From: Flavobacteriales bacterium
Lineage (GTDB): Bacteria > Bacteroidota > Bacteroidia > Flavobacteriales > UBA7430
Reading direction: 5' to 3'
Length of the DNA stretch: 64,000 bases
Assembly: GCA_022425195.1 (NCBI GenBank)
Contig: JAKMFX010000040.1
Coordinates: 62,001-126,000 of the forward strand
Positions within the stretch are counted from its first letter, which is position 1. Every line of letters begins with the position of its first letter. The translations under genes and the position numbers were made by a program. Shown here in pieces: positions 11,518 to 22,044 of the stretch. The notes below the pieces were generated by a model. The model did not search any database. It was not told the origin of the DNA and saw nothing but the letters and a program-made list of their open reading frames with translations.

Positions 11518-11910
11518 TTAAAATTTCGATCGTATCCTTTCGGCAATCTCTACAAGTTCTGCAGACTCTAATTTCAATTTTGGCCTTGAAAAATTAATAT
11601 CCTCCACTGATTGTAAAGGAATTAAATGAATATGAGCATGAGGAACCTCCAAACCTATCACGGCTACTCCAACCTTCTTACATGGAATCGATTTTTCGAT
11701 GGCCTTAGCCGTTTTTTTTGCGAAAGCCCACAAATCCTTATACTCCTGATCCTCTATATCAAAAATAGAATCGGTTTCCTTTTTTGGTATCACCAAAACA
11801 TGTCCCTTAGCTAGAGGAAATACATCTAAAAAGGCTAAAAACTGGTTGGTTTCGGCAATCTTATGAGAGGGTATGTCTCCCTGAACAATCTTTGTAAACA
11901 GGCTGGCCAT
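11518..11910 (-). CDS. HIT family nucleotide-binding protein
   Basis: A 130-residue histidine-triad protein. The active-site HxHxHxx motif is visible as PHAHIHLIPL near residue 95. The N-terminal half has the typical FTKIVQGDIPSHKIAE and GHVLVIPKKETDSIFD segments. HIT proteins hydrolyse nucleoside phosphoramidates or dinucleotides; bacterial HinT-like members are ubiquitous. Its ATG overlaps the stop of greA by one base (11910), a pairing that is common in Bacteroidota, so they form a greA-HIT unit. Confidence 0.93.
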   Translation of the reverse strand: MASLFTKIVQGDIPSHKIAETNQFLAFLDVFPLAKGHVLVIPKKETDSIFDIEDQEYKDLWAFAKKTAKAIEKSIPCKKVGVAVIGLEVPHAHIHLIPLQSVEDINFSRPKLKLESAELVEIAERIRSKF

Positions 11911-12383
11911 TATCTTGATATTTCTAAAATCTCAAACTTCACTAAGCCCGCGGGCACTTGTATTTCAGCAATTTCTCCAACTTTCTTACCTAACAAGCCT
12001 GTACCTATGGGTGAATTTACTGAAATCTTCCCCGTTTTAATATCCGCCTCTGTCTCTGCCACCAAAGTGAAGGTCATTTCTGCTTTCGTATTTAAATTTT
12101 TTATTTTCACAATAGACAGCGCGAGCACCTTATCTGTGTCTAACTGGGATTCATCAATAACACGAGCACCTGAAAACATTTCTTCGAGTTTTGCGATTTT
12201 CATCTCCAGCATCCCCTGAGCTTCTTTGGCCGCATCATATTCAGCATTCTCGGAGAGATCACCTTTATCTCTAGCTTCAGCTATTTGTTGAGAGATGCTA
12301 GGTCGCTCAACAAATTTCAAATGATCTAATTCCTCTTTTAACTTCTTAAGTCCCTCTTTTGTATAATATGAAACAGTAGACAT
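11910..12383 (-). CDS. greA: Transcription elongation factor GreA
   Basis: A 157-residue protein of normal length. An N-terminal coiled coil (about residues 8-75; EGLKKLKEELDHLK and RDKGDLSENAEYDAAKEAQ) contains the acidic tip residues that reach the RNA polymerase active site. A C-terminal FKBP-like domain with SPIGTGLLGKKVGEIAEI follows. It rescues backtracked polymerase by stimulating transcript cleavage. It is first in the unit with the HIT gene and is separated from the upstream PorV-like gene by a terminator at 12412-12439. Confidence 0.96.
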   Translation of the reverse strand: MSTVSYYTKEGLKKLKEELDHLKFVERPSISQQIAEARDKGDLSENAEYDAAKEAQGMLEMKIAKLEEMFSGARVIDESQLDTDKVLALSIVKIKNLNTKAEMTFTLVAETEADIKTGKISVNSPIGTGLLGKKVGEIAEIQVPAGLVKFEILEISR

Positions 12384-12411: not shown

Positions 12412-12439
12412 CAAAAAAAGAAGACTCCATGAGTCCTCT
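12412..12439 (-). terminator. Terminator after the PorV/PorQ-like gene
   Basis: On the minus strand AGAGGACTC and GAGTCTTCT (12419-12439) form a 9-bp stem with a 3-base loop and one G-U pair, followed by a run of seven T (12412-12418 on the plus strand as A). It closes the receptor/secreted protein/barrel unit before greA. Confidence 0.75.
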
Positions 12440-12482
12440 CTTTGCAAATTTATAAATATTCCTCTAATAAAGAAGCGAATCT

Positions 12483-13538
12483 TTAAAGCGTAACTCTTAC
12501 GCCAATAGAATTTGGAGCTTGTAATGGATTTGCTGCTCTGTAAGAATAATCGATGCCAAAATGGGTCCCATTCGTCAAAGGCACCTCAAATGAGGCTCCT
12601 AAACTCAGTCCCGTAAGTGTGGATGTATGGTCGATTTTTTCATTACTCATAGTTCCTTCATGGGTGTATGCTGTTCTGAGCATAAAATGAGTTTTGTAAG
12701 CATACTCAAACCCAGAAATCAGTTGGTTTTTACTAAAGGAATTTGATACGAAATTCCCAGCTAGGGTAAAACGATGATGTTCTTCTTTATGAAAATCATA
12801 GGAACCCCCAATAGAAAGAAGAGAAGGCAACTCAAATGCTTCAACACGTAAGTCATAAGTCATTTGATAATTCTGACCATGCGCACTGGAATTGGTGTTT
12901 TTCACATCATTTCCATCCCCCTCAAATTTCATTTTAGGCCCCACATTTTTAAGCGTTATTCCAAATTTAATTTCTTGATGGTCACCCGCCACGTATTGTA
13001 CACCTGCATCTAGTGAAATTCCCGATGCTTTTAAATCTGGGATGGACTCGGAAATAATTCGCACAGTCGCTCCACATGAGATATTATCCGTAAATTTTTT
13101 CGCATAGGAGAACCCTGCATTCATGTAGGATGGCGAGTACGACCCTCCTGTTCCTTCAGGTAATTCCGTGGTTGTTACATCAATGGCTCCAAAGTTCATA
13201 GACATAAAAGTTAGCGCAAGAACTGCTTCATCATCTATGGTTTTGGCAACGCCAAAAGCATTGATTTTGATATCTGCCCACCAAGAGGTATTCGAAAATA
13301 TCAATTCGATATTTTTAGTGGTAGCCAAACCGGCAACATTCACAAAAGTAGCCTCAATACCGGATACAGAAGCAGTATTTACCCCACCCCAACCCGAGGA
13401 TCTCGCCCAAGGATTAATCAGCAATTCTGTAGCACCTGCTTGTCCTGAACGTTGTTCATTCCCCGCTATAAGATCATTGGCATGCAAAGACACGATCAAG
13501 ACCAATACTTGCAGAACATTTCTAATACCTTTATTCAT
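12483..13538 (-). CDS. PorV/PorQ family outer-membrane barrel
   Basis: About 351 residues from the Met at 13538 (MNKGIRNVLQ), with a signal peptide ending near ANDLIAG. The mature start QAGATELLINPWARSSGWGG with NTASVSGIEATFVNVAGLA is the hallmark of the PorV/PorQ (FadL-related) family. A beta-barrel ending RVTL follows. PorV is the shuttle protein that hands type IX secretion cargo from the translocon to the attachment complex, and paralogues often sit beside individual cargo genes. It is the last gene in a unit after the 1350-residue secreted protein, which suggests a dedicated role for that cargo. Three upstream codons (MIC) are also in frame. Confidence 0.85.
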   Translation of the reverse strand: MNKGIRNVLQVLVLIVSLHANDLIAGNEQRSGQAGATELLINPWARSSGWGGVNTASVSGIEATFVNVAGLATTKNIELIFSNTSWWADIKINAFGVAKTIDDEAVLALTFMSMNFGAIDVTTTELPEGTGGSYSPSYMNAGFSYAKKFTDNISCGATVRIISESIPDLKASGISLDAGVQYVAGDHQEIKFGITLKNVGPKMKFEGDGNDVKNTNSSAHGQNYQMTYDLRVEAFELPSLLSIGGSYDFHKEEHHRFTLAGNFVSNSFSKNQLISGFEYAYKTHFMLRTAYTHEGTMSNEKIDHTSTLTGLSLGASFEVPLTNGTHFGIDYSYRAANPLQAPNSIGVRVTL

Positions 13539-13573
13539 ACATATCATCCTATGAAATTTTTAGTTTACAGCTA

Positions 13574-16500
13574 TTAAAATGAATCCAAATCAATAGGTCT
13601 TAGTGCACCAAACCACTTTACTACTTTTTCACCCTTTTCATGCGCATCCACATGTATGATATAAACTCCTGATGAAATCGATACACCATAATCATTTTTA
13701 AGATCCCAATCCCAACCGACTGTGTTCTGTTCACTATCGAGCTTCACCTGTCGAACTAAAGTTCCAGAAACATTATAAATGGAGATTTTACAAATCTTTG
13801 GTAGGTTCGTAATTCGCACTCGGTGATCTAACTGATCTTTCTCATAATTATTAGATCCATAGTAAGGGTTTGGCACAACACGTATGAGGTCTAGAGCCTT
13901 TCGAGCCACATCCACATCCTTCGTAACGGTTTGAATATCTTTCGTATTAAACTTCATTTGCAAGCCCCCGTCATCGTCGGAGCTACCAGTCTGCTCGCAT
14001 AGACTACCTTCCATTTCGTACCTCTGATATGGTTTAGATACTCGCAATTTTATCTCAACATCTGATGACAACATAGTAGTGTTTTTGGCAAGAAGAGGAA
14101 TTGATACCCAAGCCACTTCTCTGAACACCTCCCGCTTGTATCTTATACTGTTCATCTTGGTTAATTTTGAATATAAAGGGTTTTGTTTTTCGTCTGGACC
14201 AGCATAGGTGTTTTTCATCACATACACGTAGTGTCTTCCACCAAAAATCACATCAAACGAATCGTCAGCATTAAACTTGATGCTCGCTAGAGAGTCTCCT
14301 TCCGTTAATGTTGAAGTAGGATTCCACATCATATCGGAACCATTATCATCGGGATGTGAGGAGGATTCCCCAAACATCAGATTCAATCTTGACCCTTTCT
14401 CAAGATCTAATGCATATCCAGGGAACCAGGAAAAACCTTGAGTTCCAGAGTCATCCGCATTCCCATCCTTATCAACAGAGGGCTCAGACTTCATATACAA
14501 TCGGTTTGAACCCGATTGGGTTTCAATCACCGGGCAGCGAGTCCACAGAGATTGATCGCTGGTGAATACGATATCTACAGATGGAAGATCCTTCAACTTA
14601 TTTAACGTCTGGAATGACTTGTATGCGGGAGAATGCTCAAAAGCTCCGGACATACCATCAACACCCACCAAACGATAGGGAGCCCATGCACCATTCAAAA
14701 TACCTTCGAAAGCCTCTCCATCATCTAAACCCTTATGATCTACAGTATCTACCCCAGACCTAATCCAATTGTTATGACTAATATAAGCCTGGTTTCCCAT
14801 GGAAAAATAATCGTTATCATAAACGTAATCCAACCAATCTGAATCATCAGCTTTTAAGATTGAAGCACTCAAAAAACCATTATCTGAGTTTTTATCATCC
14901 CCGAAACGCCCTACCTCTTCTCCGTTTTCAATCGCAAGCGACAAGCCCCATTCAGGAATGAGTTGTTCGTTATTGACTTCAATCGTTTGTTCAGCATATA
15001 CCGTATCTCCTAAAGTACTGTTTACGAGTATCCACTGCCGAGGCAGAATATATGAACTTGAATCTGCAACGAGAAATAAAGTATCATTCAGCTCAACATT
15101 CATCTTAAATATAAACTCGGTATTCTCAGGAACATTTAAAGGGTCTACCACTGTTATATTTACAGGGCCCGTATTTTCAGCATAAGTGGTGTTTGGATCA
15201 CAAAATTCTGATAAAATGATCGCTTTAGTTTCTGGAGTAAACTCCAAACTCATCCCTCCATTACCAATTCCTTTGAGACGTGTCAAAGAAGGGATGGTTC
15301 CATAACTCACATTCTGAAGTGTACCGTCTGCCTCTGCATCAGGCCTGTGAGGTATGACTGAATATTGTTTTATGTTTTTTCTACCCGCCAAAAAAGGCTT
15401 TTTCTGTCCTTTAAAACTGGGCGCATAGAGATTACTGGCATCGGGCACTTGATCAGGAGCATAGGCCAAATACTGATTATAGGCGTAAGCAATTGCTGTG
15501 TAATAATAGGTTTTGTGATTTACCAGCGTACGATTCCCAACAGCAAACAAATCTTCGGTTATCGATACAGAGTGTTTAATCCCCTGATTCATACTTCCTA
15601 CATCTTCAAGGGTCATGTCCTTTGGAATGCTCGCCTGTAAATCTTGACTGTATTCGAAATTTATAAGCCTTGAAATGGGGTGATCCGTTTCTTCACTCGT
15701 TATTTCCCCCGCTATGGTCCGGTAATTTTTCACATCAGATTGAAAAACCAATCGAGCTTTGTCGACATTATAAATATCAGAAGCAGTAACGGTTTCATCT
15801 CTTAATTGGAAAATTTGGTATCCCTCAAAAACATATTCATTATCGTAAGGGAGTGTCTGTAAGCTGTCGTAATATCCAATGATGTTTACTTCATCTACCT
15901 CTACGTATTCTTCCTTGTAATTGTTTGAATTGAAATCGTTAGAAATCATTACAACCAACTCTTGATCTAACTCTTGTATCGTCAAATCTGGTGCATCAGG
16001 TCCATCTAAAACCTCAAAACACACGTCAAATAATTTTTGTGCTTTGTCATCTGCGATGAGCATTTGCTCTACAGAAGCCCAGGCGCCTCCTTGGCTTGCG
16101 CGTGCCCATACGACCCCAGTCGTAACATTATTCACCGCTCCGGGCTCTAATGTAAAAGGCCCAGCTGATTGTACGAAACGTCTGTCATCTGGAACATTTC
16201 CAGCGGACTGCTCCGTCCAAGATTGCCCCTGAAACTTAGGATCACTATCGCCTGGAAACATAAAATCACATGCAACATTTGAAGGGTTTGTTCCGTCACC
16301 ACCATAGGTCATTGACGAGCCATCTTTCCATATACCTCTGAGATAATTATAAAAGTCAGATGCTATATCTGGCTCTCCGTTGGTCACATTGGTATTTCTG
16401 TTGTAATAGACAAACTTAGACATGGTAATTTGTTCCCCAGCTTCATCTATAATCCCATTTCGGTTGTTGTCGACCCCATCGTCTTCATCAGCCAAAGGAC

Positions 16501-17626
16501 CTCTAAAAAAGTCGACCCCAATCGCAGGTGGATTTGCTCCATACCCTTTCGCTCCCTCATCATCTTCGTCACCATTGTAACAATAACCTAGGCCCCTTGA
16601 TACGTCGCAACCAACAAAGTCATCATCATAGTTTCCAAGGTCTGGATCCACAAACTGTCCAAACCAAGTTTCATTCAAGGCGCTATGAGAACGGTTGATG
16701 ATTCTGTAATTGTAAAAAGTCATGTTGTTGATTTCGTCATTGGTAGAAAACGCAAAAGCTTGGGCTTGGATTTCTAACCCAATAGCTGAAGCTGAGCCGG
16801 ATGCCGTATGGGTGTTCCCTGCGTCGTTATATACCCACCATAAAGTTTGATCTCCAAACAACATGTCATCTTCTTTACAATTGAGGGCTCCATCCAAATT
16901 ATACTCTGGATGATCTCCTGCTAGTGGATTATATTTCCCATCGCCATCCACATCTCGAAAAGGAGCTAATGTTTCAAGACTGTAATATGGCGTACTTGCG
17001 ACAAGAGTATCTTTACCAGAAAAAGCATTAGAAAAGTCATCACTGCTTCGATTTCCTGGATAGTTGAGTATTGAAGATGGAATGATATAATCTGGATAAT
17101 CAACTGACTTCTTATCCGAATTCCACCAGCCCACAAAGTCTTCTACATCACTCCTTAGTAGCACAAAATGCTCATCGTACTTGGCACAAACAGAGGCATC
17201 AGTTTTTCCATAATTGGAATTGGGAAGGCCATCGGAAGTTAAACGAACATTGTCGAGCGGTCCGGGCCAGAAATCATCACCACTACTTCGATACGTCTGT
17301 GCAGCTACCTTAAGTTGATTGTTATCATCCTTACCTCCAATCCAAAGAGCGCCCGCAAATAAAGAATGTTTTCCTGAGCCTATAGGAATTTCATATCGGG
17401 CATCTCCTTGTAAATCCCACCACATGTCTCCACCATTCATGATGGATGTCCTCACATTGTTGACATCTAGCAAGGTGGTTGATGTACCAGACGCACAATT
17501 GTAAGAGAAGTTCTGTACAGAACTTTTTGATTTTTTTTCTTTATCGCGTACAGGTTCTTTTGCCTGAATAGCTATTGCTGGCGCAAACAAGAAAACAAAC
17601 AAAATCTTTTTAATTATCTTTTTCAT
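13574..17626 (-). CDS. Giant secreted protein with FlgD/T9SS-like C-terminal domain
   Basis: A 1350-residue protein with a signal peptide (about 1-22). The N-terminal part is rich in Trp, Asp and Gly, with calcium-loop-like repeats (DVDGDGKYNP near residue 224; DDGVDNNRNGIIDE near 386). Beta-rich repeats follow. The C-terminus (about 1255-1350) has VVPNPYYGSNNYE, ISIYNVSGTLVRQ and SSGVYIIHVDAHEKGEKVV. This resembles the FlgD-like/type A sorting fold of type IX secretion cargo, but with a distinct final KWFGALRPIDLDSF tail. I recognise the same architecture from other Bacteroidota but know no function. It lies between its receptor-like and PorV-like neighbours with 26- and 35-base gaps, one operon. 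Confidence 0.8.
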   Translation of the reverse strand: MKKIIKKILFVFLFAPAIAIQAKEPVRDKEKKSKSSVQNFSYNCASGTSTTLLDVNNVRTSIMNGGDMWWDLQGDARYEIPIGSGKHSLFAGALWIGGKDDNNQLKVAAQTYRSSGDDFWPGPLDNVRLTSDGLPNSNYGKTDASVCAKYDEHFVLLRSDVEDFVGWWNSDKKSVDYPDYIIPSSILNYPGNRSSDDFSNAFSGKDTLVASTPYYSLETLAPFRDVDGDGKYNPLAGDHPEYNLDGALNCKEDDMLFGDQTLWWVYNDAGNTHTASGSASAIGLEIQAQAFAFSTNDEINNMTFYNYRIINRSHSALNETWFGQFVDPDLGNYDDDFVGCDVSRGLGYCYNGDEDDEGAKGYGANPPAIGVDFFRGPLADEDDGVDNNRNGIIDEAGEQITMSKFVYYNRNTNVTNGEPDIASDFYNYLRGIWKDGSSMTYGGDGTNPSNVACDFMFPGDSDPKFQGQSWTEQSAGNVPDDRRFVQSAGPFTLEPGAVNNVTTGVVWARASQGGAWASVEQMLIADDKAQKLFDVCFEVLDGPDAPDLTIQELDQELVVMISNDFNSNNYKEEYVEVDEVNIIGYYDSLQTLPYDNEYVFEGYQIFQLRDETVTASDIYNVDKARLVFQSDVKNYRTIAGEITSEETDHPISRLINFEYSQDLQASIPKDMTLEDVGSMNQGIKHSVSITEDLFAVGNRTLVNHKTYYYTAIAYAYNQYLAYAPDQVPDASNLYAPSFKGQKKPFLAGRKNIKQYSVIPHRPDAEADGTLQNVSYGTIPSLTRLKGIGNGGMSLEFTPETKAIILSEFCDPNTTYAENTGPVNITVVDPLNVPENTEFIFKMNVELNDTLFLVADSSSYILPRQWILVNSTLGDTVYAEQTIEVNNEQLIPEWGLSLAIENGEEVGRFGDDKNSDNGFLSASILKADDSDWLDYVYDNDYFSMGNQAYISHNNWIRSGVDTVDHKGLDDGEAFEGILNGAWAPYRLVGVDGMSGAFEHSPAYKSFQTLNKLKDLPSVDIVFTSDQSLWTRCPVIETQSGSNRLYMKSEPSVDKDGNADDSGTQGFSWFPGYALDLEKGSRLNLMFGESSSHPDDNGSDMMWNPTSTLTEGDSLASIKFNADDSFDVIFGGRHYVYVMKNTYAGPDEKQNPLYSKLTKMNSIRYKREVFREVAWVSIPLLAKNTTMLSSDVEIKLRVSKPYQRYEMEGSLCEQTGSSDDDGGLQMKFNTKDIQTVTKDVDVARKALDLIRVVPNPYYGSNNYEKDQLDHRVRITNLPKICKISIYNVSGTLVRQVKLDSEQNTVGWDWDLKNDYGVSISSGVYIIHVDAHEKGEKVVKWFGALRPIDLDSF

Positions 17627-17652
17627 GTTTCTGATATTACTAACTGTCTAGA

Positions 17653-20600
17653 TTAAAAGTCAATGGTAACTCCCAAACGAACAGTTCTAGGTCGATTGTA
17701 GTGAGCCGGATTGTTTAACTTCAAGCTGTATAAATCAACAAATGAGTTTGGATCCGTCTCTTTCTGAATGGCATCCTTACCTGCGGCACTTGTCAAATAA
17801 CCATCATCATCTGCATTCCCTGTGTATCTATACACTTTTATGACATTCTTCGTGTTTAAAAGATTTTGAACCAATAGATACACGTTTACGGATGTCTGTT
17901 TTTGATTTTCTGGATCACCCCATTGCAGGTCAAATTGTTTATTTATTCTCATGTCAAGTCGATATGTCCAAGGCAAACGAGACCCATTGATACTCCCATC
18001 TAGAGAAGTTCTACCCCCACCTTCTACAAGGACGGTCTTGGCTTCAGTCATTTGTCTGGTATAGGGTGTTCCTGAGCCAGCAGTAGCTAACAAATTAACT
18101 CCCATGTTTGCAAATAATTGCTTTCCGTACCAAAGAGGTCCACTGTAGTGATTTCCCGATCCGTAACGAAAATCTATACTTGCCGTTAGGCTATGACGCT
18201 GGTCATAATCTAAGGGTAATGTTGTTCTTAAATTGGGCTGTGATGAGTTTACGATGTTTGCCCCCGAGGTAGATGAAGAACCAGACCCATCTGCAAATTG
18301 CATGGTGTAATTAGCATTCAAACTCAAATTTTTCGTTCGACGCATCTCGTAAGCGAGAGATAATCCTTTGACCGTACCAAAATCGATATTTCCATAGGTT
18401 GTGTAACTTATTGGAAAAGCATAATTAATTTTCGTGAACTGAATCATATCTCGCATTTCCTTATAAAATGCATTGATGGTCAATGCAGAACTGGAAGACA
18501 AGGTTTGTTTGAATCCCACCTCAAAATTGGTCGTTTTCTGTGGTTTTAAATTAGGATTATTTAAGTTCTGAGAGTTGGATTTATAGGCCAAGAACAAATA
18601 ATCCATCGGGTCTAATGCATTTTTACTTGGTGGTCGCTGAGACAAAACATCGTAGTACGCATAAAACATGGCTTCATCGGAAATAGGGAAATTGAAAGAA
18701 ATCCTAGGCATTATGGTTACCTGGGGCTTATAATCTTCAAAAGCATTTGCGCTTAACCCTTTGTTTAATGGGTCACTATTCCTCAAAGCTTCAGGGTCTG
18801 CCAACATAGGCAATACCCCTTTCGACACATTAAGAACTTCAGGGTCAGTAATTGGAAGGCCACTGGCATCATACCAATCATCTCCTTTTCTATACCCCGT
18901 AATGGAGGTAACATTTGTGTTGTCGTCTACGTAAACCACATAGTCATCTCCTATGTTAGACGGATGGTTAAAATCAGATACTTCACCCGCCGTCATGACT
19001 TCATAAATAGAGTACTTGTCTTTTAGCACTTCCTGGTTTGCATCGTATATATCTACGCGAACTCCTACATTGAAGACTAGATCTTCAAAAGCAAATTTGT
19101 CTTGTATGTAAAAGGCTGCATATATGGGTTGAAATGCACCTATTTCACGTTTGTGATTCTCCGCTGAATCCTTTCCATTAAGAAACTCATTCATCCCGGG
19201 TTGCACTCCATCAAGCCTGTTCCCGTAATGATCATATCCCATCCAAGAAGCGTAACCTCTTCCATAACGAGACCCTCCATCCATCAGTTCATCAGGAGTG
19301 AACATATTCATATTCAAATCATCTGGTGCATAGGAGTGAATGTCGACAAGATCCTCGCGATTGATGCCATGAGCTTGTCTGAAGCTTTTCGCAAAATTTG
19401 ACATGTTCTCGTACTGATAAGAATGTGATTGGCTGAGGAGGGTTCCATTCAAAGAATCTAAACCGGAAAACACATACGCCCCTTCAAACTGGTCTATGTA
19501 ATTATTCACATTCTTGTCAGCTATTCCCCAAAGACCTAAAGGGTTCACATTGTAATATCGATCATCTCTTTTTTCATATTCAAACCCAACCTGTATGGCA
19601 TGGTGATTCACATCGGCTGAAAAAGAACCTGTAATTCTAAATTGACTGTCATCAATCTTTGTGTAACCATCGTATTCCCTACCAGCATTAAAGAAAATAG
19701 AATATACATTTTCCGAACGAGCACCATTAATTAGGGCTCCAGATCCTCTAATTTCTTCTAGAGAGGTCACCGATTGATCTCCCATAAAGTCAAAATAAGA
19801 TTGCGTATAGTTCTCTGCAAGAGGATTGAAACCACCACGATCAAATGTAAAATCAGAAATCATGTCATTACTTAATTCAAAGTTTGGTGATTTGATATTC
19901 GCTGCTCCATCAATAACAAGCGTGCTGGTTTTAGCACCAAACAGGGTGTCGTTAGGAGATATGTTATATAGAGAATCAATCCCTATAATATTGATGGTAT
20001 GATCTTCGTTAGCCCATTCATCAGGAGTCACAATAGTTCCCTTTCTCTGGGGTGTAAATTTTCCTATGTAACCATAATGGAATAATTTGTCTTGATGGTT
20101 GGCGTCCTGTCGAACTTTATTATCCTTTGAATAATCTGCTTGTAGTGTGATGAATGCATTTTTTATAGATGCATTAGAGGACTCATCATTAGCGCCGAAA
20201 CTATGCTGAAAACGCCCGTAGACTCTCCATGATTGGTCAATATATTCTGGATTATTTCCCGAGTTAAACAAACTGTAATCATATACGGACTGTCGAGAGT
20301 TAGAATTTGAAAAGTTACCACCCAAAGAAAAATTCGTTTTTAAATTCGGTTTAAAATCTATTTTACCTTGAAGGCTACTATTTCCTTTGGCAACATTCTG
20401 CCTCACGTCAATTCTTTCTATGTCTTTCGTCGTGATAAACTCTGCGGCTCTCTCAGACGCAATACTCCCATTATTGGAGCTAAAAATCAGAGGGTTTTCC
20501 TGAAGGTTTTGCATCACACCATCCTTAAGCTTATAAGCTCCTACAGCAGACGGATTAGGGTCTTTCAATGACTCATACTCTCCTGATAAGAAAAACCCCA

Positions 20601-21402
20601 AGACAGATTTACCGGAGTCATTTTTCTTTAATGGACCCGAAACATTAAAACTAAGAAGATTGTTGCCGTAAGGGTCTAGACCTTCAGAGCTACTCAACTC
20701 AATTCCTCCAAAAAAATCATTGGATGGACCACGAGTAGTGATGCTAATTACACCACCAGTAGCATCTCCGTATGACGCTGGCAAACCTCCAGTAATAACT
20801 GTCATCTGTTCAATGGAGGCCTTTGGGATTTTATTTGAAGATCTTACTTTTATGCCATCGATATAGAAAAAAGTCGCATCATCACGTGAACCACGTACAT
20901 TAAGAGCTCCCCCTTCATCTTTTTGAAAAATCCCTGCCGTCTGGGCTGCGACTGACTGAATGTTACGCGTCGGAAGCGACATAATTTCTTCCTTAGATCT
21001 TGTCGCACCAGAGACATCAGGATCAATTAAGGGAATAACGTATTCGATAAGTTCAACTTCTCCTAACACTTCAGCCTCCACTTTGAGCTCGGCATTCAAA
21101 AAGGTAATTTTGTTAGAGGACACAAGAACTTCAGTAATTTGCTGGGTGGCAAAACCAATGAAAGAAACTTTCAATGTATAAAGGCCTGGGTTGATTGGTT
21201 TAATGGTGTAATTCCCATCAAAATCAGCTACCGAACCCCCAATGACCGCTCCATCGGAAAACAGGACAACGTTAGCCATAGGAACGGGCTCCCCGCTTTT
21301 ATATTCTGAAATCGTCCCTTTTAAAGTTCCCGATTGTGACTGCCCGAAAGCGAATGACGATGCCAAGAGAAATACAATCGCGACAAATAAGTTCTGAAAC
21401 AT
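17653..21402 (-). CDS. TonB-dependent receptor with carboxypeptidase-regulatory-like domain
   Basis: A 1249-residue outer-membrane protein. It has a signal peptide (about 1-20, FAFGQ) and a CarboxypepD-reg-like beta sandwich (about 22-110; GTLKGTISEYKSGEPVPMANV). A plug domain follows (about 125-240; TRNIQSVAAQTAGIFQKDEGG and GGLPASYGDATGGVISITTRG). The long 22-strand-type barrel ends RPRTVRLGVTIDF. The SusC signature is absent and no susD partner follows, so it is not a typical glycan-uptake SusCD pair. The gene is first in a unit with the giant secreted protein and a PorV-like barrel. It may serve export or surface assembly rather than nutrient import, which is inference from the neighbours. 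Confidence 0.9.
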   Translation of the reverse strand: MFQNLFVAIVFLLASSFAFGQSQSGTLKGTISEYKSGEPVPMANVVLFSDGAVIGGSVADFDGNYTIKPINPGLYTLKVSFIGFATQQITEVLVSSNKITFLNAELKVEAEVLGEVELIEYVIPLIDPDVSGATRSKEEIMSLPTRNIQSVAAQTAGIFQKDEGGALNVRGSRDDATFFYIDGIKVRSSNKIPKASIEQMTVITGGLPASYGDATGGVISITTRGPSNDFFGGIELSSSEGLDPYGNNLLSFNVSGPLKKNDSGKSVLGFFLSGEYESLKDPNPSAVGAYKLKDGVMQNLQENPLIFSSNNGSIASERAAEFITTKDIERIDVRQNVAKGNSSLQGKIDFKPNLKTNFSLGGNFSNSNSRQSVYDYSLFNSGNNPEYIDQSWRVYGRFQHSFGANDESSNASIKNAFITLQADYSKDNKVRQDANHQDKLFHYGYIGKFTPQRKGTIVTPDEWANEDHTINIIGIDSLYNISPNDTLFGAKTSTLVIDGAANIKSPNFELSNDMISDFTFDRGGFNPLAENYTQSYFDFMGDQSVTSLEEIRGSGALINGARSENVYSIFFNAGREYDGYTKIDDSQFRITGSFSADVNHHAIQVGFEYEKRDDRYYNVNPLGLWGIADKNVNNYIDQFEGAYVFSGLDSLNGTLLSQSHSYQYENMSNFAKSFRQAHGINREDLVDIHSYAPDDLNMNMFTPDELMDGGSRYGRGYASWMGYDHYGNRLDGVQPGMNEFLNGKDSAENHKREIGAFQPIYAAFYIQDKFAFEDLVFNVGVRVDIYDANQEVLKDKYSIYEVMTAGEVSDFNHPSNIGDDYVVYVDDNTNVTSITGYRKGDDWYDASGLPITDPEVLNVSKGVLPMLADPEALRNSDPLNKGLSANAFEDYKPQVTIMPRISFNFPISDEAMFYAYYDVLSQRPPSKNALDPMDYLFLAYKSNSQNLNNPNLKPQKTTNFEVGFKQTLSSSSALTINAFYKEMRDMIQFTKINYAFPISYTTYGNIDFGTVKGLSLAYEMRRTKNLSLNANYTMQFADGSGSSSTSGANIVNSSQPNLRTTLPLDYDQRHSLTASIDFRYGSGNHYSGPLWYGKQLFANMGVNLLATAGSGTPYTRQMTEAKTVLVEGGGRTSLDGSINGSRLPWTYRLDMRINKQFDLQWGDPENQKQTSVNVYLLVQNLLNTKNVIKVYRYTGNADDDGYLTSAAGKDAIQKETDPNSFVDLYSLKLNNPAHYNRPRTVRLGVTIDF

Positions 21403-21624: not shown

Positions 21625-22044
21625 ATGAAAAAATTACTTTTTGTTGTATTGTGCTCCTTGGCTTTCATGACCTGTAAAAAAGATGCTTATGATTTCCCCT
21701 ATGCACGCGTAAATTTTGAGGGGATATATCCGAGCAATCCCGTCTACAAAGGACTTCATTTTCCAGGGGGATCTGCTTCCATCAACGGAGGAGTCAATGG
21801 CATTCTTCTATTTCACGACTACTTTGACAATTACACTGCTTACGATAGAGCTTGTACGAATGATCCACTGAACAGCTGCGAACAAGTTTATAGAGATGAA
21901 GAGAACCCAAATGTACTTTCCTGCCATTGTTGTGAATCTCAGTACTTTATTTTTGACGGCAGCGTAACAAAGGGCCCAGCAAAACAAGCTTTGCATAGAT
22001 ATTCTACAAGATTTGATGGTGTGGAACTGAGGGTTTATAACTAA
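21625..22044 (+). CDS. Rieske-like lipoprotein lacking canonical ligands
   Basis: A 139-residue lipoprotein with lipobox FMTC (Cys at about residue 17). The core matches the Rieske-fold lipoproteins common in Flavobacteriia: VNGILLFHDYFDNYTAYDRAC, then LSCHCCESQYFIFDG and SVTKGPAKQALHRYSTRFDG. In true Rieske proteins the cluster is held by CxH and CxxH. Here the first site reads CTND and the second CHCCESQ, so the histidine pattern is absent or rearranged. Six cysteines remain in the mature chain. It probably keeps the fold but not a normal 2Fe-2S centre. The gene stands alone between a divergent receptor gene and a terminator. Confidence 0.65.
   Translation: MKKLLFVVLCSLAFMTCKKDAYDFPYARVNFEGIYPSNPVYKGLHFPGGSASINGGVNGILLFHDYFDNYTAYDRACTNDPLNSCEQVYRDEENPNVLSCHCCESQYFIFDGSVTKGPAKQALHRYSTRFDGVELRVYN

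Follow-up and report, generated by a model that had tools for sequence, protein, structure and literature searches.

Two proteins of the type IX secretion system keep their C-terminal sorting domains (CTDs) unprocessed and remain on barrels of the PorV family: PorZ is retained on PorQ, and PorU on PorV. Cognate PorV-like barrels have been suggested to protect such uncleaved CTDs (both points from PMC10202324). In Flavobacterium johnsoniae, orphan type B cargo proteins share a shuttle (PMC12618676). Here we consider three adjacent genes in a stretch of 64,000 nucleotides (the window) from contig JAKMFX010000040.1 of a Flavobacteriales bacterium. In order, they encode a TonB-dependent receptor; a very large protein, which we call the giant; and a barrel of the PorV/PorQ family, which we call PorVL. 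The parts of this trio are of known kinds, and the combination seems not to have been described before: we found no prior description in the open full-text literature that we searched, with subscription papers and preprints outside that search.

We propose that the trio encodes one outer-membrane complex, in which the giant is a type IX cargo that is held on PorVL and acts as the receptor's partner in uptake. We put the probability of this reading at roughly 50%. We favor an anchored uptake unit because the three genes are linked all-or-none, because every surveyed genome with a giant has SprA, because the giant's CTD resembles that of PorZ, because the giant and the receptor diverge together, and because paralogous trios lie among sugar genes. 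Taken singly, two parts of the proposal are more secure than the whole: the giant is probably a type IX cargo that is retained on PorVL, and it is likely, if a little less so, that the giant and the receptor work together. A first-pass annotation of the window, made from the letters alone, had also read the three genes as one unit and had proposed a cargo-specific export or surface-assembly system.

The three genes form an old unit

We scanned contigs with the giant and found at least 582 relatives among at least 597 candidate stretches; the best 79 loci were kept. A trio was called, with profiles of the three proteins, if a receptor lay just upstream and a barrel just downstream of the giant on the same strand. 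The near set (L025-L103) has 80 giant loci, 66 of them with enough DNA on both flanks. Among these 66, we saw the whole trio 48 times, neither partner 18 times, and a single partner never. The far set (L104-L143) consists of 40 regions from other families of the phylum, with 41 giant loci, and was hand-picked from genome-survey matches to spread over families, so it is not a random sample. Here 35 of the 38 loci with both flanks have the trio, three have neither partner, and again none has a single partner.

Co-occurrence of the three families had been set beforehand as the test that could refute a unit, and these directly observed counts favor the unit. That distant members of the phylum share these three genes, identically ordered, is more than chance would give, which bears out the earlier reading of the minus-strand genes as belonging together. 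We conclude that the trio is an old, all-or-none unit that is common across much of the phylum.

Linkage could also arise without a complex, if these were co-expressed surface genes that are held together by co-regulation or by a stable neighborhood: greA and a HIT-family gene lie behind the trio in most Bacteroidia loci, where the region is stable anyway. However, the trio is equally tight in other classes and in paralogous copies elsewhere, and neither greA nor HIT was matched in the far loci L110-L143, so we consider this explanation very unlikely. The proteins also diverge together. Across 36 loci, tree distances correlated at 0.935 for giant and receptor and 0.723 for giant and PorVL, versus 0.648 for giant and greA and 0.597 for receptor and greA. 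With greA partialled out, giant-receptor was 0.891 and giant-PorVL was 0.590. Because the giant-receptor correlation is above those with greA, these two proteins diverge together beyond what they share with their neighborhood, with length accounting for part of the contrast.

We had considered lone giants as a breach of the unit and have dropped this. We looked at 15 genomes with a lone giant: those of 12 of the 18 partnerless near loci, plus L085, L086, and L095, whose flanks were too short for the linkage count. Each has one receptor of the trio family (E <= 1e-100) with a second giant immediately behind it, and PorVL lies behind that giant in 14 of the 15 (E <= 1.9e-124). In the remaining genome (G320), a partly matched giant at an apparent contig end comes after the receptor, and no strong PorVL was found. 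All 15 genomes thus keep a trio elsewhere, one of them cut by the apparent contig end, so the lone giant is an extra copy. By analogy with the orphan type B cargo of F. johnsoniae, it might borrow the trio's barrel in trans.

Some further giants and giant-like proteins were seen in the course of this work. The partnerless second giants are from Fluviicola/Crocinitomicaceae-like genomes (L062, L065, L074-L078, and L085-L102) and have an altered tail, ..AFIAMRMVDLQNI; several adjoin an apparent thymidine kinase, a murF/alr-like gene, and an M28-like peptidase (names from reading). One of these relatives, L074, bears the label Fluviicola. Giants also occur in tandem: at L051:2671-12089 the second one lies behind the trio's barrel, and at L083 two are adjacent. 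Most of the 15 genomes (G307-G321) encode proteins of ~510-550 amino acids that match only the N-terminal region of the giant and are a separate family of the same domain. In two core trios from other classes (L206:11100-13274 and L205:6488-8725), the barrel gene is followed by one for a large protein, which in L206 has TPR repeats and multihaem cytochrome c motifs. In one relative (L043, and contig C1 of genome G005), the frames of the giant and the barrel, and in L043 of the receptor too, are fragmented in the same locus, which is either decay of the whole unit or poor sequence.

The giant is a probable type IX cargo

To place the trio relative to type IX secretion, we used 296 genomes of the phylum, each at least 90% complete. 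The giant family was matched (E <= 1e-20) in 110 of these genomes, with many of the matches being partial and to distant members, and SprA was found in 227. SprA was present in 110 of 110 genomes with a giant, versus 117 of the 186 others, and the window genome has it as well. The reverse does not hold: 117 of the 227 genomes with SprA have no giant match, and in the window's order, the giant was matched only in the window genome, though 35 genomes of the order have SprA. We conclude that the export machinery does not include the trio. The window genome also has PorV (beside PorU) and PorQ, as well as PorU and PorZ, the latter two identified by their own models.

The giant is conserved from end to end: 60 relatives align at 44-91% identity, and invariant Trp, Gly, Cys, and Asp residues are spread along the whole protein. 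Its N-terminus, judged by reading, resembles a Sec signal peptide. The first ~500 residues are a beta supersandwich in an AlphaFold2 model; the top structural matches come from the N-domains of enzymes that act on carbohydrates, namely dextran dextrinase (Z 19.3 over 252 residues, root-mean-square deviation [rmsd] 3.2), cellodextrin phosphorylase, and GH116. For the middle (residues ~560-1230), which was only lightly probed, Foldseek and VIA-align listed no clear match; this does not show the region to be new. A sequence search of the PDB with the whole giant gave nothing useful.

At the C-terminus, residues 1272-1331 have sub-threshold matches to FlgD_ig and Por_Secre_tail. TIGR04183 scored 21.8 bits in hmmscan (cut-off 23) and 26.2 bits, above the cut-off, in the genome search; PF18962 scored 16 bits (cut-off 27). 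A FlgD/T9SS-like tail had been noted in the first pass. In a model of the last 110 residues, the top fold match was the CTD of PorZ (Z 10.3, 87 residues, rmsd 2.4, 25% identity), followed by peptidase Vpr (Z 8.8) and PorU (Z 8.4); the translocon-bound CTDs of RemA, RemZ, and NucA also matched (Z 6.8-6.9). PorZ is the giant's best match in NCBIfam too (NF052228, 27.5 bits), within the CTD only and below the cut-off of 260. Outside the CTD, no part of the giant matched PorZ, and no type B CTD model was among its matches at E <= 1.

The giant ends in a tail, KWFGALRPIDLDSF, which had been described as an unusual extension. Beside other type A domains of the same genome, it is odd. The genome has 34 type A matches, and among the 30 that were given as loci and read, most end 14-21 residues past the GxY motif, with the longest stretches in the giant (28), PorU (25), and PorZ (22); these figures are approximate, as the motif could not be read in one domain and the pattern misread another (44). 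Within its own family, the long tail is the norm, and we dropped the idea that it is peculiar to one protein. All 78 core giants that passed a length filter (three of them from genomes of the same family) end 27-39 residues past the conserved Tyr of GxY, with a median of 28, as do 39 of 40 far giants at 27-31 residues. The last residue is Phe in 58 of the 78 core giants and Tyr in 8. A profile of the giant's CTD matched, weakly, only PorU (14.5 bits) and PorZ (11.0 bits) among the other sorting domains of the genome that were read. The tail is the least certain part of the CTD model, which would fit a binding segment that awaits its partner.

The giant could instead be an ordinary type A cargo, which PorV handles and whose CTD is cleaved by PorU, so that the protein is linked to lipopolysaccharide or released; PorVL and the receptor would then serve a related but separate purpose. 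The type A-like Ig domain agrees with this, type A CTDs are all recognised by PorV (PMC12618676), and Porphyromonas tolerates C-terminal extension of CTDs (PMC11285876). However, it would leave the all-or-none linkage with a separate PorV-family barrel to be accounted for, as well as a CTD that is nearest to two retained CTDs (PorZ and PorU) and a tail that is conserved to its final residue, so we think that it is unlikely.

The barrel is distinct from PorV and PorQ

PorVL passes the cut-off of the model for the PorV/PorQ family (NF033709, 145.6 bits, cut-off 90) and misses those of the equivalogs for PorV (NF033710, 70.5 bits, cut-off 250) and PorQ (NF033711, 82.6 bits, cut-off 220); it is also under the PorV2 cut-off. 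The family model matches all 51 members of our barrel alignment (A2) at E <= 0.001. A PorP family model matches 12 of the 51 weakly, and no PorP/SprF model was among the matches of PorVL itself at E <= 1. In a tree of 113 PorV-family members, 30 PorV proteins and the barrel from L173 form one clade (support 1.0), PorQ groups with L182 (0.997), and all of the trio barrels are outside both. As a single clade, the trio barrels have weak support (0.373); a clade of the core barrels, most far barrels, and four paralogues has support of 1.0. These results support the earlier description of PorVL as a dedicated PorV/PorQ paralogue.

The window genome encodes three PorV-family proteins above threshold, namely PorV, next to PorU; PorQ (contig C24, 329.1 bits); and PorVL. 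With as many long-tailed CTDs as barrels, three of each, the giant would most simply pair with PorVL, which is what we suggest. A related alternative is a second attachment complex, made up of the giant as a PorZ-like factor and PorVL as its PorQ-like barrel, that modifies glycolipid or delivers it to other surface proteins. The PorZ-like CTD is consistent with this, as are the higher score of PorVL against PorQ than PorV and the single trio-family receptor in each of 15/15 genomes. But the genome already contains PorU, PorZ, and PorQ, the giant has no PorZ match beyond the CTD, and such a complex has no need of a receptor, all of which make it very improbable.

The receptor and its paralogues point to a possible role in uptake

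The receptor has CarboxypepD_reg (PF13620, 52 bits), plug (PF07715, 34.8 bits), and barrel (PF00593, 59.1 bits) domains, all above cut-off. No SusC/RagA model from NCBIfam, which presumably includes such models, matched it at E <= 1. The window genome has no match to SusD_RagB (PF07980, the one SusD model that we searched) at E <= 1e-6, so the receptor is, as first described, without SusD.

Outside the window's class, genomes contain more PorV-family proteins. Across 41 genomes, the medians for SusD and PorV-family proteins were 10 and 3 in the window's class (n=11) and 0.5 and 11 in other classes (n=22); the latter figures leave out eight genomes of family f18, which are without SprA. From two single-contig genomes, we fetched 12 of the 16 PorV-family loci of G041 and 8 of the 14 of G014. 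One of these 20 loci encodes PorV, one encodes PorQ, and 18 have a receptor, a CTD protein, and a barrel, 17 of them in the order of the trio and one (L181) rearranged.

Some of these paralogous trios have sugar genes nearby, as found by Pfam scans of hand-chosen neighbors. LacI-type regulators lie near L176, L180, L184, and L192; an IclR regulator is at L177; and GntR-FCD and PfkB genes are at L191. At L187/L203, a gene for a sugar-type ABC solute-binding protein is right behind the barrel, and genes for a MalK-like ATPase and GH97 lie beyond it. L202 (in G041) has a LacI regulator, the trio, a CBM9 protein, and a GH10 protein, and L201 (in G014) has the same trio-GH10 order. Several of the scanned neighbors had no sugar-type match, and L189 has FG-GAP/UnbV.

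By analogy with these paralogues, the core trio may have a role with sugars, which may not carry over to it. In any case, the claim that the system is distinct from nutrient import is not supported, as related trios in other classes sit beside LacI, IclR, and GntR regulators, GH10 xylanase, GH97, and sugar ABC genes. The rest of the first-pass interpretation stands: one unit, a probable type IX cargo, a dedicated barrel, and no SusD. Under its model, the receptor powers or gates export or assembly and imports nothing. The dedicated barrel, the inseparable genes, and the lack of nutrient genes adjoining the core trio would suit that. It is harder to square with a receptor whose plug and barrel domains are above cut-off, with paralogous receptors whose loci also contain sugar regulators, xylanase, GH97, and ABC genes, and with the 117 of 227 SprA-positive genomes that have no giant match, which imply that type IX export generally needs no trio. 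We consider the export model quite unlikely.

A model for the trio

In the model that we prefer, an anchored uptake unit, Sec would carry the giant across the inner membrane, and the type IX translocon (SprA) would carry it across the outer one. PorVL would then take up the giant's PorZ-like CTD and conserved tail, instead of PorV passing the CTD to the sortase PorU. The giant would stay uncleaved and be anchored at the surface without a covalent linkage, like PorZ on PorQ. There it would sit on or beside the receptor as a surface partner that captures or gates substrate for import, so that the giant and its anchor barrel would fill the role that SusD has toward SusC, with a type IX cargo. We infer the export, the retention on PorVL, the physical complex, and the uptake function; gene order, linkage, co-occurrence with SprA, the kind of CTD, the separate barrel, and co-divergence were observed directly.

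Several observations weigh against this model. Giants without an adjacent partner make up 18 of the near loci and 3 of the far ones. Amine oxidases, which rank lower in the Foldseek list, share the supersandwich fold, so it is no proof of sugar binding. The sugar-linked paralogous cargoes are without the long tail (18/19 end 19-21 residues past the Tyr, all in Lys, Arg, or His), so the core trio may have a different function. The window trio's neighbors (greA, HIT, ruvC, ruvB, and SAHH) give no hint of nutrients. If the alignments are cut to the length of greA (158 columns), then the correlation is 0.764 (0.641-0.825) for giant and receptor and 0.579 (0.412-0.685) for giant and greA, and these ranges overlap. 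Finally, the numbers of PorV-family and SusD proteins are anticorrelated across classes (rho -0.45, p 0.008, n 33), but there is no such trade-off within the other classes (rho -0.14, p 0.53, n 22). Ancestry can therefore explain it, and we have dropped the trade-off, which is confounded by class, as proof that one system replaced the other.

More broadly, and tentatively, we suggest that Bacteroidota may have a second architecture for TonB-dependent uptake, perhaps an older one, in which a receptor works not with a SusD lipoprotein but with a large type IX surface protein that is held on a dedicated PorV-family barrel. Many Bacteroidia would have one conserved copy, and other classes, with few or no SusD, would have several that are linked to sugar genes. 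If so, then PorV-family barrels would be general anchors of uncleaved type IX cargo, and barrels that are annotated merely as "PorV/PorQ family protein" would gain a defined role. This would also join type IX secretion to TonB-dependent uptake, two fields that are handled apart, and would explain how substrates are captured at the surface in lineages that have a type IX system but hardly any SusD. The trio is a natural and widespread case for asking why some type IX CTDs stay uncleaved.

The locus and its surroundings

The source genome is 1.77 Mb in 48 contigs and is 99% complete (a computed figure). Its closest named relatives are Flavobacteriales, Cryomorphaceae, and Bacteroidetes metagenome-assembled genomes. 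The features of the locus are listed in Table 1.

Table 1. Features of the trio locus, in window coordinates (ORF, open reading frame; pLDDT, predicted local distance difference test; pTM, predicted template modeling score)
Feature	Position	Strand	Basis
TonB-dependent receptor, trio gene 1 (CarboxypepD_reg, plug, barrel)	17653..21402	-	ORF of 1249 aa; Pfam; alignment A3, 39 relatives at 39-66% identity
Giant, probable type IX cargo, trio gene 2	13574..17626	-	ORF of 1350 aa; alignment A1, 60 relatives at 44-91% identity
Beta supersandwich at the giant's N-terminus (residues ~44-539), resembling the N-domains of GH94/GH15/GH116 enzymes	16010..17497	-	AlphaFold2 model m46b1796c89ec, pLDDT 81, pTM 0.64; Z up to 19.3 over 252 residues
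Sorting domain at the giant's C-terminus (residues ~1235-1345), with a PorZ-like Ig fold	13592..13924	-	AlphaFold2 model mb95ca693e91c, pLDDT 84.6, pTM 0.82; top match PorZ CTD, Z 10.3
Final ten residues of the giant, ALRPIDLDSF, within the conserved tail past the last strand	13577..13606	-	Family alignment; low confidence in monomer model
PorV/PorQ-family outer-membrane barrel (PorVL), trio gene 3	12483..13547	-	ORF of 354 aa; NF033709; separate from PorV and PorQ in the tree
Terminator-like hairpin between the trio and greA	12415..12443	-	13 pairs, 4 G-C; site class not enriched over shuffles

The gaps within the trio are 26 and 26 bases, counting from the first ATG of the barrel gene. The first-pass annotation gave 26 and 35; the 26 is right, and the 35 counts from the next in-frame ATG (MNKG..). 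It also had the trio end in one terminator. There is a hairpin ~40 bases past the stop codon of the barrel gene, ahead of greA, but the scan that located it gave 10 sites of this type, versus 10.3 in shuffled sequences, so the hairpin alone is weak evidence of a terminator.

The genes around the trio were named by reading their ORFs. The greA and HIT-family genes (window 11518-12383) follow the trio in most Bacteroidia trio loci (most of L025-L109), often with ruvC on the opposite strand, so the core trio has long occupied this chromosomal position. Divergent from the trio is a small Cys-rich gene (21625-22044, plus strand) whose 139-aa product has a lipoprotein-like start. Relatives at 27-81% identity are similarly placed in many trio loci. 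The protein has no match in Pfam, and the spacing of its Cys and His residues may resemble that of a degenerate Rieske site.

Comparison with known systems

Because the genome has no SusD match and the PorZ and PorQ equivalog cut-offs are missed, we do not consider the trio to be a member of either SusC-SusD or PorZ-PorQ. It shares features with both, and with three other systems.

The canonical PorV shuttle is a barrel of the same family as PorVL (NF033709), whereas PorVL is outside the clade of 30 PorV proteins, is apart from PorQ, and comes as one barrel per cargo gene. Type B CTD cargo of F. johnsoniae have a cognate PorP/SprF barrel gene directly behind the cargo gene, which decides the cargo's destination (PMC12618676), as may be true of PorVL; in contrast, the CTD of the trio is type A-like and its barrel is from the PorV/PorQ family. 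In the xylan locus of Rhodothermus marinus, a hypothetical protein that has a Por-type CTD comes after a TonB-dependent receptor, beside the xylanase Xyn10A and LacI (PMC6987092). In the similarly ordered L200 (G019), however, the CTD protein is followed by a 591-aa PPIC-domain protein and not by a PorV-family barrel. We have therefore dropped the R. marinus locus as a trio, with its equivalence to L200 being inferred from gene order only.

Like PorZ-PorQ, the trio would keep a secreted, type IX CTD-bearing protein on a PorV-family barrel (for PorZ, see PMC10202324), and the CTD of the giant is nearest to that of PorZ in both fold and sequence. The giant is not PorZ, however, given 27.5 bits from the CTD only against a cut-off of 260, and the genome has PorZ, PorQ, PorU, and PorV besides. 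The trio also adds a TonB-dependent receptor, and the giant's tail is longer. As in SusC-SusD, a TonB-dependent receptor is genetically tied to a probable surface partner, and paralogues of the trio lie in sugar loci. In the trio, this partner is a probable type IX cargo with its own barrel, rather than a SusD lipoprotein. The trio thus resembles SusCD in its layout and PorZ-PorQ in its proposed anchoring.

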